A stretch of DNA of 64,000 nt from contig NZ_CP034444.1 in NCBI RefSeq assembly GCF_003952385.1, positions 2,790,001 through 2,854,000 on the forward strand, given 5' to 3'. The position numbers were made by a program, and so were the translations under genes. The notes below the pieces were generated by a model. The model ran no database searches. It was not told where the DNA came from and saw nothing but the letters and a program-made list of their open reading frames with translations. Each line of letters opens with the position of its first letter. Position 1 is the stretch's first letter. Source of the DNA: Mesorhizobium sp. M1D.F.Ca.ET.043.01.1.1 (GTDB lineage: Bacteria; Pseudomonadota; Alphaproteobacteria; Rhizobiales; Rhizobiaceae). Positions 58,442 to 64,000 of the stretch are shown in pieces.

Positions 58442-59428
58442 ATGAAGAAATTCATAAACGCGGTGGACACGGTGCTGACCGAAAGCCTCGACGGTTTCGT
58501 CGCCGCCCATTCCGACATCCTGACGCTCGGCGAGGAGCACAAATTCGTTCGCCGCAAGACGCTCAAGCCGGGCAAGGTGGCGCTGATCTCGGGTGGCGGC
58601 TCCGGCCATGAGCCGCTGCATGGCGGGCTGGTCGGCCACGGCATGCTGGACGCCGCCTGCCCCGGCCAGGTCTTCACCTCGCCGACGCCGGACCAGATGC
58701 TGGCTGCCGCCCAGGCCGTCGACACCGGCGCCGGTTGCCTGTTCATCGTCAAGAACTACGAAGGCGACGTGATGAACTTCGACATGGCGGCCGAAATGTT
58801 GGACGGCGTGCTGCAGGTGGTGACCAATGACGACGTCGCGGTCGAGAATTCGTCCTACACGACCGGGCGGCGCGGCGTCGCCGGCACGCTGGTGGTGGAA
58901 AAGATCGTCGGCGCCGCGGCCGAGCAAGGCATGGCGCTGCCCGAGCTCAAGGCAATCGGCGATCGCGTCAACGCGGCGACGCGCTCGATGGGCGTGGCGC
59001 TGACCAGCTGCACCGTGCCGGCGGCGGGCAAGCCGACTTTCGAGATCGGCGACAGCGAGATGGAGTTCGGCGTCGGCATCCATGGCGAGCCCGGCAGGCG
59101 ACGCGACGCGCTGAAGAGCGCTGACGCCATCGCCGAGGAGATCTGCGCGGCGATCCTCGGCGATCTTGGCGACCGCGCCAAGGGGCCGGCTCTGCTGTTC
59201 ATCAACGGTTTCGGCGGCACGCCGTCGATGGAGCTTTACCTGATGTACAACAGCGCCCGCGAAATCTTCGAGAGCAACGGTGTGACGGTGGCCCGCTCGC
59301 TGGTCGGCTCCTACGTCACCTCGCTCGACATGGCTGGATGCTCGATCACGCTGACGATGCTCGACGACGAGACGACGGCGCTGTGGGACGCCCCGGTGCA
59401 TACGGCGGCGCTGCGCTGGGGGATGTAG
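58442..59428 (+). CDS. dhaK: DhaK subunit of PEP-dependent dihydroxyacetone kinase
   Basis: The 328-residue protein binds dihydroxyacetone covalently through a His hemiaminal. Conserved E. coli residues are all present: H56 (GGGSGHEP), D109 (KNYEGD) and H214 (GVGIHGEPG, equivalent to H218). CTVPAAGKPTFEIGDSEMEFG and the C-terminal LDDETTALWDAPVHTAAL match canonical DhaK well. It is shorter than E. coli DhaK (356) because of a deletion after the substrate His. It has no DhaL domain, so it fits the separate DhaL. It is the last gene of the operon, 17 bases from the next gene. Confidence 0.95.
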   Translation: MKKFINAVDTVLTESLDGFVAAHSDILTLGEEHKFVRRKTLKPGKVALISGGGSGHEPLHGGLVGHGMLDAACPGQVFTSPTPDQMLAAAQAVDTGAGCLFIVKNYEGDVMNFDMAAEMLDGVLQVVTNDDVAVENSSYTTGRRGVAGTLVVEKIVGAAAEQGMALPELKAIGDRVNAATRSMGVALTSCTVPAAGKPTFEIGDSEMEFGVGIHGEPGRRRDALKSADAIAEEICAAILGDLGDRAKGPALLFINGFGGTPSMELYLMYNSAREIFESNGVTVARSLVGSYVTSLDMAGCSITLTMLDDETTALWDAPVHTAALRWGM

Positions 59429-59444: not shown

Positions 59445-60530
59445 ATGACTTTTCTGCGACCATATTCGCGGAATTTGCATGCCATTCGCGACGTTGCCCG
59501 GTTGATGCTGCCACCGCTTTCGCCTGCCGATGAAAAACTGCTGCTCGACTTTGCCGACCCCGAGGTGCCGGCCGACCGTGGCCGGAATCTTTCGGCAAGC
59601 AGCTTGACGGCGCTGCTCGCCAATGCCGAATTCCACGGCGTGCTGCCGATCATGCTGCGCAAGCTCCGGGAAATCGGCGACGCCAGCCTGCCGGAAGATG
59701 CCGTCCCGCGGCAGAAGCTCTCCGAGCTGCGCGATCAGGCGACGCTGGTGACCGGGCAGTCGATGCTGCTGCAATATCACGGCGACCGGATCATGAAGGC
59801 GCTGGCGGCGAAGGGCATTCCCGCCCGCATCGTCAAAGGTCCGGTGTTCGCGCGAAAACTCTATCACCATGCCGCCGACCGGCCGTTCACCGACATCGAC
59901 ATTTTGGTCGGTCCCGCCAGCATCGGCGAGGCCAATAGCGTCATTTCCGGCTGCGGCTTCAAGCTTGCCAGCGGCGAGGCGGAATCGCATGAGTTGCAGG
60001 AGTTCAAGTGGCTGGAGAAGGAGAACTCCAGCCTGCTGATAGAGCTGCACGGCAACCTGGTGCACGACACAGGCATGCGGCGGCGGCTGTCGCTCGGCTT
60101 TCGCGAGTTGGAAATCATCGACGGCGGCGAGGCCAATACGCCGGCGGCGCTGCTCACCATCGCCATCGTTCACGCCGCCGGCGGCCACAAATTCCACCGG
60201 CTGCAGCTTTGCGTCGACGTGTTGCAGGGCGTGCGTGCGCTGCAGTCGCCGGAGGCGGAAGCGCGCCTGCTCGAGACCGCGCGCATGACCGGCATCGAGC
60301 TCGAGCTGGCGACCGTCCTCAACGTGACCGGACGCCTGTTCGAGGAACCGCGCGCGATCGAGCTCGCCAACCGCATCAAGCCCGATCTTTCAATACGGCT
60401 CGCCAAGTGGCTGATCACCGGGAACATGCTGCTCAGGGTCAATTCACGGGACAAGATGCGCTCGCGCCTCAGCCGCGACGCCTTCCGCTGGGTCCAGCGG
60501 TTGGCCCGGCCGAGGCCCTATCCGGCCTGA
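59445..60530 (+). CDS. Nucleotidyltransferase family protein (NTP_transf_5 type) of RiPP-type locus
   Basis: The 361-residue protein resembles the nucleotidyltransferase family found in lasso-type RiPP gene clusters. The core is IPARIVKGPVFARKLYHHAA followed by DRPFTDIDILVGPASIG (D-x-D metal motif around 145-150), then LIELHGNLVH and a helical C-terminus. It may transfer a nucleotide to the peptide or to a phosphate group on it. It starts 17 bases after dhaK, same strand, but faces the maturation genes head-on: its stop is 44 bases from the kinase gene stop. Not proven to act with them. Confidence 0.8.
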   Translation: MTFLRPYSRNLHAIRDVARLMLPPLSPADEKLLLDFADPEVPADRGRNLSASSLTALLANAEFHGVLPIMLRKLREIGDASLPEDAVPRQKLSELRDQATLVTGQSMLLQYHGDRIMKALAAKGIPARIVKGPVFARKLYHHAADRPFTDIDILVGPASIGEANSVISGCGFKLASGEAESHELQEFKWLEKENSSLLIELHGNLVHDTGMRRRLSLGFRELEIIDGGEANTPAALLTIAIVHAAGGHKFHRLQLCVDVLQGVRALQSPEAEARLLETARMTGIELELATVLNVTGRLFEEPRAIELANRIKPDLSIRLAKWLITGNMLLRVNSRDKMRSRLSRDAFRWVQRLARPRPYPA

Positions 60531-60574
60531 GAGCCCGTTTCGGGCTCTGCGATCCTTCAATGGAAAGTATCCGT

Positions 60575-61564
60575 CTAAGCCTGATCAAGCACGGCGCGGA
60601 TCAACGCCGCCGTGTCCTCCGGCCTCGAGCCGACTTCCAGGGTGAAGGTCGGGACTGCCTTGACCAGCGCCGCGATCGTCGCCATGCGCCGTTTCTGCAT
60701 CGGCAAGAGGCCGGTCATGCCGGTCCTGACGTTGTCGGTGGCAAGCGCAACCATCGCATCGGTCCTGGCCATGGGCATGAGCCTGGTCTGGCCGTCGGCC
60801 GAGCGCGCCAGATGCAAGAGCGCCGCGACCGGTCTCGCGCGCACATCCTCGACGCGGATGATCTCGGCAAGACGCTCCAGCGGGACGGCCTGCTCACCCT
60901 CGGCGTCCCATTTGTCGCCGAGGCAGGGAGCGAGGAATGGCAGCATCGCCGCGGTGTTGCGATGGATCTTCACCTTGCGCGGCATGCCCCAGGCCGTGAC
61001 GCCCCCTGCTTTCGCGCCGAGGATCATGACATCGTCCGAGCAAAGGCCAAAGCCCAGCGACGCCAGCGCCATCGACGTCGTCGACTTGCCGGTGCCGCTC
61101 GGCGCGTGGATCAGCACCAGCGCCTCGCGGCCAGGCAGCGTCAGGCCGGCGGTATGGAGCATGTGCTGCCCGGCAGCATCCAGCGCGGCATCCAGCACCA
61201 TCATCAGCAGCGTCCATTTGACCTTGCTGTCGGGATGAACGCGGATTTCGGCCGAGCCCTCACAGGCATGGATCGAGGCCGTCTGCAGGCCGGGAAAGAC
61301 CAGATGGACGATGTCTCCGGCGTCGATGATCCGGCAATGGCCGTCCAGCGGCACCTCGCCGTCGAAGGCGAGCTTGCCCGCCGGGTTTTCCGGCAGCGCC
61401 GACGTTTCGCGGATATCGATGCGAAAACCGGGGTCGACCGCTTCATCGACACGCAAGGTGCCGAGCATCAGGTCGAAGCTCGGCCAAAGCTCGGCGCGCT
61501 CTACCGATATGCCGATGACCTGGCCGTCGAGGTCATAGCGGAAGCTGGTTGCCGCTCCGGTCAA
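60575..61564 (-). CDS. HprK-like kinase of RiPP-type locus
   Basis: The 329-residue protein has an HPr kinase/phosphorylase-like C-terminal domain with a P-loop HAPSGTGKSTTSMALASLG (Walker A at about 154-162) and FGLCSDDVMILG. The N-terminal half is a beta-rich part that differs from HprK. In related clusters (paeninodin-type) such a kinase phosphorylates a Ser of the peptide. The start is TTG at 61564, overlapping the stop of the B2 gene, so translation is coupled. Confidence 0.85.
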   Translation of the reverse strand: MTGAATSFRYDLDGQVIGISVERAELWPSFDLMLGTLRVDEAVDPGFRIDIRETSALPENPAGKLAFDGEVPLDGHCRIIDAGDIVHLVFPGLQTASIHACEGSAEIRVHPDSKVKWTLLMMVLDAALDAAGQHMLHTAGLTLPGREALVLIHAPSGTGKSTTSMALASLGFGLCSDDVMILGAKAGGVTAWGMPRKVKIHRNTAAMLPFLAPCLGDKWDAEGEQAVPLERLAEIIRVEDVRARPVAALLHLARSADGQTRLMPMARTDAMVALATDNVRTGMTGLLPMQKRRMATIAALVKAVPTFTLEVGSRPEDTAALIRAVLDQA

Positions 61565-61995
61565 GCGGCGCGCGCCTTCACGCTGCCGCCGGGATGGCGA
61601 TAGATTTCAACCATGTCGGGAAGGCTGTCGCTGACCACAGGCTTGCCGTCGAGGCAGACCCAGCAATGCGCCGACAGGCGCGGCTCGTGCATCGATTTGG
61701 CATCGACACCGAAGTGCAGGTCGGGGTCGAAACCGGCCATGCGCAGAAAGCGGAAACCGAGCAGCCCTTCCCTGAGGCATCTGCGGTCGCGCATGAGCCA
61801 AGGGCGCCGGACCGTTCGGTTGACCCGGGCGACGATGTACCTCCATGGCAGACCGCGATAGGGTGTGGGCAATCGCAGCGGCGCCAATTTCAGCACGCTT
61901 TCGAAATCGCGCCGGGCGACCAGCACCGGAAGCAAGCGGGCGCTGAGCCACAGATGGGTGCGAAAAACGGTGCGCAGGAACGGTCCGTCGGCCAT
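61561..61995 (-). CDS. Lasso peptide biosynthesis B2-type protease (transglutaminase-like)
   Basis: The 144-residue protein belongs to the B2 leader peptidase family. The catalytic triad appears as C73 (RRCLREGLLGFRFLRMAGF), H110 (LSAHCWVCLDGK) and D123 (PVVSDSLPD), with LHFGVDAKS before the His. In known systems B2 cleaves the leader from the precursor with help of the B1 protein. Its ATG overlaps the stop of B1 (ATGA), and its stop overlaps the kinase start. Confidence 0.9.
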   Translation of the reverse strand: MADGPFLRTVFRTHLWLSARLLPVLVARRDFESVLKLAPLRLPTPYRGLPWRYIVARVNRTVRRPWLMRDRRCLREGLLGFRFLRMAGFDPDLHFGVDAKSMHEPRLSAHCWVCLDGKPVVSDSLPDMVEIYRHPGGSVKARAA

Positions 61996-62282
61996 CACGC
62001 GCCCGGGTCGGCAAGGATGCCTTCGGCCACCAGTTCGGCGGCAAGGGCGGCGATATCCTCATCGAGCGTGGCCTTGTCGACTTCGAATTCGTCCGACAGC
62101 AGGTCGACGATCTGGTCAAGGCTGCGCGCGCCATCGACCTTGTCGAGGAAGGCTTCGGTGGTGCCGTTGCAGGTGTAGAGCTGGCCGCTGCGCGCCAGAA
62201 GCACGACGGCGCCGTCGCCGACATGCTGCACGGAGGCGTCTTCCGCCATCCGCAGAACCGTTTCAGAACCGATTTCAGCCAT
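61995..62282 (-). CDS. PqqD-family RiPP recognition protein (B1 type)
   Basis: The 95-residue protein has the PqqD/RRE fold that binds the leader: VLLARSGQLYTCNGTTEAFL, then DGARSLDQIVDLLSDEFEVD and a C-terminal helix EDIAALAAELVAEGIL. It is a separate domain, like B1 proteins of lasso systems. It lies 149 bases downstream of the precursor gene on the same strand, and is overlapped by B2. Confidence 0.9.
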   Translation of the reverse strand: MAEIGSETVLRMAEDASVQHVGDGAVVLLARSGQLYTCNGTTEAFLDKVDGARSLDQIVDLLSDEFEVDKATLDEDIAALAAELVAEGILADPGA

Positions 62283-62387
62283 ACGCCCGCTCCCTTGCCG
62301 AAGTGGAATTAGCGCGGCGCAAGGGTGCTGTCCATCGCCTGATGGCGGCCCTGCAATGCGCGGGCGATCGGATCTTCTCACGAGCGC

Positions 62388-62411
62388 CCCGGAAGAATAC
62401 CCGCTTCCGGG
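62388..62411 (-). promoter_or_regulatory. Hairpin between precursor and B1 genes
   Basis: A perfect 8-bp stem (CCCGGAAG, 62388-62395, with CTTCCGGG, 62404-62411) and 8-base loop lie about 20 bases after the precursor stop. There is no U run. It could protect the short precursor mRNA or reduce read-through, giving more peptide than enzyme. Confidence 0.55.
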
Positions 62412-62431
62412 CCAAGCAGATCGTCGGGTGG

Positions 62432-62527
62432 TCAGCCGGCCGGACCGATCGGGCCACTCGGGGCGGCAACGACCTTCGACAGCGTCTCGCGCTTGACCAA
62501 CAGCGGCTTTTCGTAGGTTCTCTTCAT
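62432..62527 (-). CDS. RiPP precursor peptide with lasso-type leader (31 residues)
   Basis: This short gene is outside normal length cutoffs. The product starts KRTYEKPLLVKRETLS, which holds the Y-x-x-P-x-L leader motif (Y5, P8, L10) recognised by B1/PqqD proteins. The C-terminal part is VVAAPSGPIGPAG: small residues, three Pro, one Ser (S24) and no Asp or Glu, so a macrolactam ring cannot be made. The GGGGA ribosome site precedes ATG at 62527. It is followed by B1, B2 and kinase genes on the same strand. The likely modification is Ser phosphorylation and leader removal (inferred). Confidence 0.8.
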   Translation of the reverse strand: MKRTYEKPLLVKRETLSKVVAAPSGPIGPAG

Positions 62528-62666
62528 CAAAATCCCCCAGAGAACAGTCCACCGCGGAAGGATGAGGGTCGGCTGTGATCGCTGTCAAGCCAGCGACTCC
62601 GTCAGGGTTGCCATCCTTCCCTTAAGTAAGCTAAGAATCCGCCGGGTTTTTTGGGGAGTGGACAGT

Positions 62667-62942: not shown

Positions 62943-64000
62943 ATGGCCTCACGCTACCGCGAAGTCTATGAGGGCTGGAAACGCGACCCTGCGGGGTTCT
63001 GGGCCGAGGCGGCCAAGGCGATCGACTGGTATTCGCCGGCCGAAAGCGTCTTCGACCCGGCGGCCGGCGTCTACGGCCGCTGGTTCGTCGGCGCCTCTTG
63101 CAACACCTGCTACAACGCCCTCGACCGCCATGTCGCCGGCGGCCGCGCCGACCAGCTGGCGCTGATCCATGACAGCGCGATTACCGGCACGATCCGGAAA
63201 TTCACCTATGCCGAACTGAAGCGCGAGGTCGTCGCGCTGGCCTCGGTGCTGAGGCATCGCGGCATCGGCAGGGGCGACCGCGTCATCATCTATATGCCGA
63301 TGGTGGCGGAGGCGGCTATCGCCATGCTCGCCTGTTCCCGCATCGGCGCCGTTCATTCGGTGGTCTTTGGCGGCTTCGCCTCGCATGAGCTCGCCACCCG
63401 CATCGACGACGCCAAGCCGAAGCTGATCGTCACCGCCTCCTGCGGCCTGGAGCCCGGCCGCGTCGTCGCCTACAAGCCGCTGCTCGACAAGGCGGTCGAG
63501 ATGTCGAAGCACAAGCCCGACGCCTGCCTGATCCTGCAGCGCGAGCAGCTGCGCTGCGAGATGAAGGACAATTACGACTTCGACTATGCCGACGCGGTTG
63601 CCCGCGAGCGGGCGGCGGGAGCCAATGTCGACTGCGTGCCGGTCTTGGCCACCGACCCGCTCTACATCATCTACACCTCCGGTACTACCGGGCAGCCGAA
63701 GGGCATCGTGCGCGACAATGGCGGCCACATGGTCGCGCTGAAATGGACGATGGACAACGAGTTCGGCGTCAAGCCGGGCGAGGTGTTCTGGGCGGCCTCC
63801 GACGTCGGCTGGGTGGTCGGCCATTCCTACATCGTCTACGGGCCGCTGCTGCATGGCGCGACCAGCGTGCTTTTCGAGGGCAAGCCGGTCGGCACGCCGG
63901 ACGCCGGCACCTACTGGCGGGTGATCTCGGAGCACGGCGTGGTCGCGCTGTTCACCGCGCCGACCGCCTTCCGCGCCATCAAGGGTCAGGATCCGCGCGG
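62943..64000 (+). CDS. prpE: Propionyl-CoA synthetase PrpE (partial, runs off window)
   Basis: The first 352 codons of an AMP-forming acyl-CoA synthetase. The N-terminus (SRYREVYEGWKRDPAGFWAE) and the linker WYSPAESVFDPAAGVYGRWF fit PrpE better than acetyl-CoA synthetase. The AMP-binding signature IIYTSGTTGQPKGIVRDNGG and FWAASDVGWVVGHSYIVYGPLLHGA are visible. It activates propionate (and some acetate) to acyl-CoA. A GGAGGAAAG site precedes ATG at 62943. The 3' part, with the catalytic Lys, is beyond the window. Confidence 0.9.
   Translation, partial: MASRYREVYEGWKRDPAGFWAEAAKAIDWYSPAESVFDPAAGVYGRWFVGASCNTCYNALDRHVAGGRADQLALIHDSAITGTIRKFTYAELKREVVALASVLRHRGIGRGDRVIIYMPMVAEAAIAMLACSRIGAVHSVVFGGFASHELATRIDDAKPKLIVTASCGLEPGRVVAYKPLLDKAVEMSKHKPDACLILQREQLRCEMKDNYDFDYADAVARERAAGANVDCVPVLATDPLYIIYTSGTTGQPKGIVRDNGGHMVALKWTMDNEFGVKPGEVFWAASDVGWVVGHSYIVYGPLLHGATSVLFEGKPVGTPDAGTYWRVISEHGVVALFTAPTAFRAIKGQDPR

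Follow-up and report, generated by a model that had tools for sequence, protein, structure and literature searches.

The window analysed here is a 64,000-nucleotide stretch of the genome of Mesorhizobium sp. M1D.F.Ca.ET.043.01.1.1 (G000:C1:2790001-2854000, where G000 is this genome itself and C1 its single 7.13-Mb contig). Towards its right-hand end lies a locus of lasso-peptide type, which comprises a short precursor peptide, a recognition element for ribosomally synthesised and post-translationally modified peptides (RiPPs), a leader peptidase, a kinase and a facing nucleotidyltransferase, and which has no cyclase. We studied it together with the dispersed family of small peptides to which the precursor belongs. 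A sequence-only reading of the window had already named these five genes; their positions were confirmed and family matches obtained:

62432..62527, minus strand: precursor gene, 31 residues (leader MKRTYEKPLLVKRETLSKVVA, then core APSGPIGPAG), supported by the sequence, by alignments A1 and A2 and as the best own-genome match of family model A1
62583..62588, minus strand: TTGACA, 61 nt ahead of the precursor start and likely the -35 element of its promoter
61995..62282, minus strand: B1, PqqD-like RiPP recognition element (RRE), PF05402 at 47.2 bits (cut-off 23.4)
61561..61998, minus strand: B2 leader peptidase, NF033537 at 63.3 bits (cut-off 33) and PF13471 at 47.9 bits (cut-off 26)
60575..61564, minus strand: K, a kinase of HprK/PEPCK fold, from weak profile matches, a conserved motif and the fold
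59505..60530, plus strand: N, nucleotidyltransferase of the NTP_transf_5 family, PF14907 at 95.3 bits (cut-off 31.2)

The B1/B2 and B2/K genes overlap by a few bases, with B2 probably starting at ATG 61995, and B1-B2-K look like one operon, which N faces. The precursor gene lies upstream of B1, some 150 bp away, and has a TTGACA element of its own; a purine-rich stretch precedes its start. It carries a YxxPxL leader with Val at position -2 and, by the Y(-17) ruler of lasso leaders (PMC10368454), a predicted core of 10 residues with Ser3. From the precursor to N the overlapping B1-B2-K operon holds no further gene, and B2 is the sole peptidase there (no search was made for an SpI peptidase encoded at other sites of the genome). 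B1 also matches the lasso protein TfuB1 (6jx3) by sequence (E 3e-6) and scores 40.2 bits with NF033530, under the cut-off of 70, while Cys74 and His111 of B2 are kept in 39/39 aligned sequences. K conserves His137, the Walker A motif APSGxGK and Asp177-Asp178 across loci, and in a fold search (Foldseek/VIA) PEPCK is among the matches listed; HPr kinase itself is not among them, an absence that does not count as evidence. The best NCBIfam match of K is TIGR04352 (HprK-related kinase A) at 31.1 bits against a cut-off of 200, and membership in HPr-rel-A was rejected on that score. N had been recognised correctly as a nucleotidyltransferase, but its start, given as 59445, is probably ATG 59505, 60 nt further on: 9/38 related loci have a stop codon before that residue (in a tenth, L046, a stop is found near the far end of the N match instead). 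Lys131-Gly132 and Asp150-x-Asp152 of N are conserved (numbering from 59445). Its structure model has a predicted local distance difference test score (pLDDT) of 89.8 and found no match at E ≤ 0.001 in the fold search, the best Foldseek hit (E 0.025) being a weak likeness to antibiotic nucleotidyltransferases. Searching the PDB with the K, B2 and N sequences yielded no useful match.

Where, then, is the cyclase? As the sequence-only reading had claimed, the window contains no Asn_synthase (PF00733) match. The whole genome contains seven, the nearest of which (G000:C1:2880427-2881620) lies about 28 kb to the right of B2, on the other strand, in a complete lasso operon outside the window:

L049:12696-18537 (= G000:C1:2878696-2884537): complete lasso cluster with predicted core GGAGTTALDAAFPAHTPFDQLTFS, B1, B2, cyclase, K and an ATP-binding cassette (ABC) transporter, facing N

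The two clusters share the gene types A, B1, B2, K and N and are likely paralogous, but the neighbouring one has in addition the cyclase, the transporter and an Asp9 core (it starts GGAGTTALD, predicted Gly1/Asp9), and protein identity is only 21–32% across the stretch that aligns best.

Scanning named genomes with B2 gave 38 related loci, 32 of them close (30 Mesorhizobium and the metagenome bins L015 and L016) and six distant (Hoeflea L041, Chelativorans L044, Roseovarius L045, Hyphomicrobiaceae bins L046 and L047, metagenome bin L042); contig ends cut several, for example L016, L032 and L036. The four-gene set B1-B2-K-N, for which a search of relatives had been suggested, is present in 38/38 (B1 of L032 is cut by the contig end). 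Searching up to 10 kb on each side by tblastn with the own-genome cyclase, we found no cyclase in 37/38 loci; the search picked up a relative of 24% identity, and a still more distant cyclase could escape it. That relative, in L045, is an AsnB-like gene next to a Mur-ligase gene, in a divergent operon separate from the locus. The AsnB-like and Mur-ligase-like pair occupies L045:6322-9519 on the minus strand, and the AsnB-like protein starts MSG instead of MCG; the glutaminase of AsnB needs Cys2, and the L045 protein may not be an ordinary AsnB. Exporters searched for in the related loci with the own lasso transporter as query gave only distant ABC matches near locus edges. In the window there is no transporter-sized gene between the gene at 58442-59428, which we take to be dihydroxyacetone kinase-like, and prpE (62944-64000; propionyl-CoA ligase, as named by the sequence-only reading). 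prpE adjoins the locus in all 32 close loci except L032, wherever there is enough DNA. The claim that leader recognition and cleavage were kept without a cyclase thus holds up among relatives, and a cyclase in the same transcript, which would have spoken against it, was not encountered.

The precursor itself behaves differently from the enzymes: it was found within the fetched stretch in 23/38 loci and not in the other 15, one of which (L032) is cut at B1, whereas precursor profile A1 matched in 39/39 whole genomes (our own and the ones carrying the 38 loci) at E ≤ 1; Hoeflea had the weakest best match, at 3.0e-6. Our own genome contains nine precursor-family genes at E < 1e-4, encoding 27–32 residues, namely the one in the window, three together at 616 kb, two at 697 kb and one each at 723 kb, 6520 kb and 114 kb. 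The neighbour genes at the five other sites are unrelated from site to site (glutathione S-transferase (GST), LysR, oxidoreductase, MscS), and no modification enzyme recurs there among the 10 nearby genes scanned. The NCBIfam model lasso_leader_L3 (NF033521, cut-off 19 bits) detects 3/9 own precursors at 15.9–17.1 bits, all below its cut-off, and does not match the window precursor at E ≤ 10. We recognised no description of dispersed precursors of this kind in the open-licence literature of PubMed Central (PMC).

To describe the peptides we collected 149 gene records (a few fetched twice) encoding 143 unique proteins; 112 of the records were taken from the surroundings of the best-scoring rows of one genus search, which favours typical members. 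The family consensus is MKKxYEKPxLxKREKLSxVTA, and YxxP occurs in the first 12 residues of 141/143 unique precursors. The leader/core boundary was placed at a near-fixed distance from the Pro, after the Y(-17) spacing of lasso leaders described in PMC10368454, and is a predicted site. In this way 141/143 could be parsed, leaving out one start-truncated sequence (Ser at core position 5) and an L046 sequence with a single core Ser, at 7. At residue -2, 98 have Thr, 35 have Val (the window precursor included) and 8 have another residue, and the core is 6–13 residues long in 131/141. All 141 parsed cores have a Ser at positions 2–6, compared with a mean of 85 and a maximum of 103 in within-core shuffles; Ser3 is found in some members only, among them the window precursor. 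Homologous precursors could have carried a lasso ring pair, yet an Asp or Glu at core 7–9 followed by at least five residues occurs in 0/141. Alignment of precursors, another check that had been proposed, thus gives the leader and the core Ser as the conserved parts, and since leader, Ser and enzymes are all conserved across loci, the locus is more than a chance assembly. In some cores (VACPISHPCG, ILCTPSNPCP, VTCTISHPCP) two Cys flank the conserved Ser, a possible disulfide loop.

The dispersed genes also share a promoter element. An exact TTGACA is found at -80 to -35 in 77/144 records with enough upstream sequence (74/141 distinct), 54–66 nt before the start in 74 of the 77, and at 6/9 own-genome precursors. 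Shuffled upstream regions gave a mean of 1.06, and of 594 control genes, called by a simple GC3 rule and therefore with uncertain starts, none has it at -80 to -35 and seven have it within 200 nt. An EcfG-type promoter was matched once among the nine own precursors. The ratio of nonsynonymous to synonymous substitution rates (dN/dS) is 0.125 in leaders and 0.274 in cores (96 pairs of at least 80% identity among 77 genes, not independent), which indicates purifying selection.

Which enzyme do these genes follow? In a sample of 146 genomes of the genus we counted K at E ≤ 1e-20, precursors (model A2) at E ≤ 1e-4 and orthologs of the lasso cyclase (hereafter C) at E ≤ 1e-80, scoring in each genome the best 15 candidates for K and the best 8 for the cyclase (the best 20 and 10 in the two class searches). 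K is found in 97/146 genomes, one gene per genome at this cut-off, precursors in 100/146 and the cyclase in 103/146. Precursors are present in 97/97 genomes with K (3–28 each, median 8) versus 3/49 without it (Fisher's p = 8e-35, uncorrected for ancestry). Divided by K and cyclase, they occur in 92/92 K+C+, 5/5 K+C-, 3/11 K-C+ and 0/38 K-C- genomes. The precursors track K, not the lasso cyclase. The five K+C- genomes hold 6, 6, 6, 7 and 15 precursors (one, G309, is a draft estimated to be 79% complete). Two more genomes, tallied as C+, show the cyclase only in the form of two separate matches, so that it is probably broken (G239:C1:628774-630683 and G265:C1:3583056-3584737); K and the precursors, 12 and 7 respectively, are kept. 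B2 (NF033537) was found in 112/146, consistent with the 97 K+ genomes plus 15 others. In the wider family sample of 151 genomes precursors occur in six, from five genera, all among the eight with B2 over cut-off, and in one of them (G123) both precursors lie far more than a million bases from B2. In the class sample the precursor model matched 0/384 other genomes, though 32 of them carry a lasso-type B2; since only our own genome of 385 matched while 33 carry B2, the model is not merely a detector of lasso leaders.

From these computed observations (gene set, conservation, dispersal, co-occurrence with K, Ser conservation, promoter element and purifying selection) we propose, with good though not full confidence, that peptides encoded at many unlinked sites are matured in trans by this one lasso-type locus, which has no cyclase, and become short, linear and phosphorylated on Ser. 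The locus would be the single maturation station of a dispersed RiPP-like family, in which about nine unlinked or loosely clustered genes (3–28 in K-bearing relatives), roughly half with TTGACA, would each supply a precursor of about 30 residues. B1 would bind the shared leader (YxxPxL, ending in TA or VA) and hand the peptide to K and B2. K would phosphorylate the conserved core Ser, by analogy with two published kinases: LppK, which places several phosphates on core Ser3 of a linear product made without a cyclase in the Bacillota peptides called LPP (Popov et al. 2026, PMC13381572), and BsfK of Bradymonas sediminis, which phosphorylates core Ser3 and is stimulated by B1 (PMC10368454). The cysteine peptidase B2 would cleave after residue 21 of the window precursor, as predicted by the Y(-17) rule, releasing a linear core, mostly of 6–13 residues. 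Cyclisation would not take place: no cyclase would be needed, and the cores lack the lasso acidic residue and tail. N would then probably add a nucleotide or sugar-phosphate group to the phospho-Ser. The modified linear peptide foreseen by the sequence-only reading therefore survives in part: the product is probably linear and phosphorylated, because the core Ser is near-universal and the catalytic residues of K are conserved, with nucleotidylation as the alternative. Cyclase-less processing of lasso type was likewise recognised correctly; the substrates as a dispersed family (nine here, 3–28 per K-bearing genome of the genus) were overlooked.

Several points weigh against this proposal. Every curated kinase cut-off exceeds the score of K, and the first P-loop Gly of BsfK is Ala in K. 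The Ser is mostly at core position 5 (also 4, 3 and 6), while Ser3 is the reported target of BsfK and LppK. One L046 precursor lacks a Ser at core 2–6, and the collecting model, itself made from cores with Ser, may favour such members. One precursor is kept in each of three K- genomes. The genus counts are uncorrected for shared ancestry and the co-occurrence is partly inherited, and with a cyclase ortholog in 92/97 K+ genomes the K locus and the lasso cluster are not independent. As for N, the study of LPP reports that deletion of lppN changed nothing detectable, which lends no support to a role for N (PMC13381572).

Could the precursor instead give a true lasso peptide, with the cluster 28 kb away supplying the cyclase in trans? 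The proximity of that complete cluster and the frequency of its cyclase ortholog among K+ genomes speak for it. However, none of the 141 cores has the acidic residue and tail that a lasso requires, the K+C- genomes all keep 6–15 precursors while 8/11 K-C+ genomes have none, the genomes with a split cyclase retain 12 and 7 precursors, and the neighbouring cluster has its own B1, B2 and precursor. On core make-up and on the contrast between K and cyclase we reject this explanation as very improbable. Nor does the locus look like a lasso cluster in decay from which cyclase and transporter have been lost, although its gene content is exactly that of the neighbour minus these two and the low identity of the paralogues would fit decay. 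B1-B2-K-N persist in all 38 loci and K in two thirds of the genus sample (97/146), the catalytic residues are kept, and the precursors are under purifying selection with a recurring promoter element; conservation and selection make a remnant barely credible, and it was rejected. The unrelated surroundings of the dispersed genes (GST, LysR, oxidoreductase, MscS) might suggest that these are scattered short genes with no relation to the locus, each processed by enzymes of its own neighbourhood. Against this stand the co-occurrence with K (97/97 versus 3/49), the presence of B2 over cut-off in 6/6 precursor genomes versus 2/145 others of the 151 in the family sample, the shared leader, Ser and promoter element, and the lack of a recurring modification enzyme at the five own-genome sites; we regard it as quite improbable.

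More weight belongs to a variant in which maturation also takes place in trans here, but nucleotidylation or glycosyl-phosphorylation by N is the defining modification of the Ser, with K preparing the site or acting elsewhere. N is in 38/38 loci with its K-G...D-x-D motif kept, its model weakly resembles antibiotic nucleotidyltransferases (the Foldseek hit at E 0.025), and the nucleotidyltransferase of pseudomycoidin is reported to attach hexoses to a phosphorylated peptide (PMC8498205). The lppN deletion without visible effect, albeit in a heterologous system (PMC13381572), argues the other way, and we consider the variant unlikely but worth keeping in mind.

Returning to phosphorylation by K as the preferred reading, the accessory genes of some relatives may point to a further step. 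A formyltransferase-like gene adjoins N in 7/38 loci (L013, L015, L022, L025, L028, L030 and L043); in L013 it matches PF00551 and lies at

L013:11423-12463, minus strand: formyltransferase-like gene (PF00551)

and L042 has a partial formyltransferase match (L042:3712-4035, 40% over 112 residues) about 3 kb from B1. A second precursor type (MTKK..SKTx or similar) is found in 7/7 formyltransferase loci versus 2/31 others (L021 and L029). An AMP-ligase (at least 47% identical to that of L044) and a GNAT protein (at least 39%) occur in L041, L044, L045, L046 and L047, 5/5; in L046 and L047 their genes share the strand with the precursors. Because a formyltransferase or an AMP-ligase with GNAT accompanies these loci, their gene content suggests that in some lineages an amine is acylated, belonging either to the peptide or to a sugar that N attaches; the acyl group would be added by the formyltransferase or by the AMP-ligase and GNAT pair. 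Taken together, one may tentatively picture the lasso machinery for leader recognition, cleavage and phosphorylation as converted to a genome-wide mini-peptide system. Its 3–28 separately encoded substrates per K-bearing genome, with a Ser as the sole core residue in common, would become short linear peptides whose phosphate is capped by N with a nucleotide or sugar-phosphate and which in some lineages are acylated by exchangeable modules (the formyltransferase, or the AMP-ligase with GNAT). The outcome would be diversified intracellular or released signals instead of a single natural product, a picture that we find possible but less likely than not.

Close relatives of B2 are publicly annotated as 'lasso peptide biosynthesis B2 protein', which would send genome miners after an absent knot. 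If our proposal is true, a lasso-type set of RRE, protease and kinase is able to serve many unlinked genes, and more than 140 natural substrates with one near-constant Ser make a panel for the study of such kinases. The role of the peptides in a large root-nodule genus also becomes testable via deletion of one locus.

How does the system compare with known ones? Of lasso traits, a discrete B1, the YxxPxL leader and B2 are present, while a cyclase in the cluster and a core with Asp/Glu at 7–9 and a tail are not, so this is not a lasso peptide. A single enzyme serving many substrates has a precedent in the prochlorosins, where ProcM acts on many ProcA peptides, partly encoded far away; their chemistry is that of lanthipeptides and their leaders are longer than here. 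Among lasso clusters, bsf (PMC10368454) is similar in its HprK-like kinase, which is helped by B1 and targets Ser3 inside the core, and in its B2, which removes the leader with the help of B1; its Ile/Val at -2 agrees with the window precursor and the catalytic residues (H, GK, DD) match K, but it has a cyclase and a predicted Gly1/Asp8 ring. The paeninodin and pseudomycoidin clusters share the HprK-like kinase and in some cases a nucleotidyltransferase, and differ in having a cyclase, a lasso product and phosphorylation of a C-terminal Ser (PMC8498205). The LPP systems, called restricted to Bacillota by their authors, are likewise cyclase-less, with an RRE, an HprK-like kinase, an NTP transferase, a YxxP leader, a kinase-target Ser near the core start and often a lasso cluster alongside in the genome (PMC13381572). 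They differ in relying on LppS, a signal peptidase of archaeal type, and on an MsbA-like exporter, where here there is a lasso B2 and no exporter in cis, and in having 1–3 precursors of 35–200 residues within the cluster, where here they are of about 30 residues, with cores mostly of 6–13, and mostly unlinked. Neither an SpI-like peptidase nor an MsbA-like exporter was found in the cluster here, and our consensus does not fit the LPP leader motif YxxPxVLxHQxIxFETxxS. With no SpI peptidase or exporter in cis, another leader and mostly unlinked substrates, the system falls outside LPP proper. Among published chemistries, those of the LPP peptides and of BsfK come closest; B2 in place of a signal peptidase, the dispersed substrates and the tiny cores set the present system apart. 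Judged from its genes, it appears to be a cyclase-less phosphorylated RiPP variant whose most unusual trait is the dispersal of its substrates, and the data point to a branch, in the Alphaproteobacteria, of peptides made without a cyclase and probably phosphorylated, with substrates encoded chromosome-wide.

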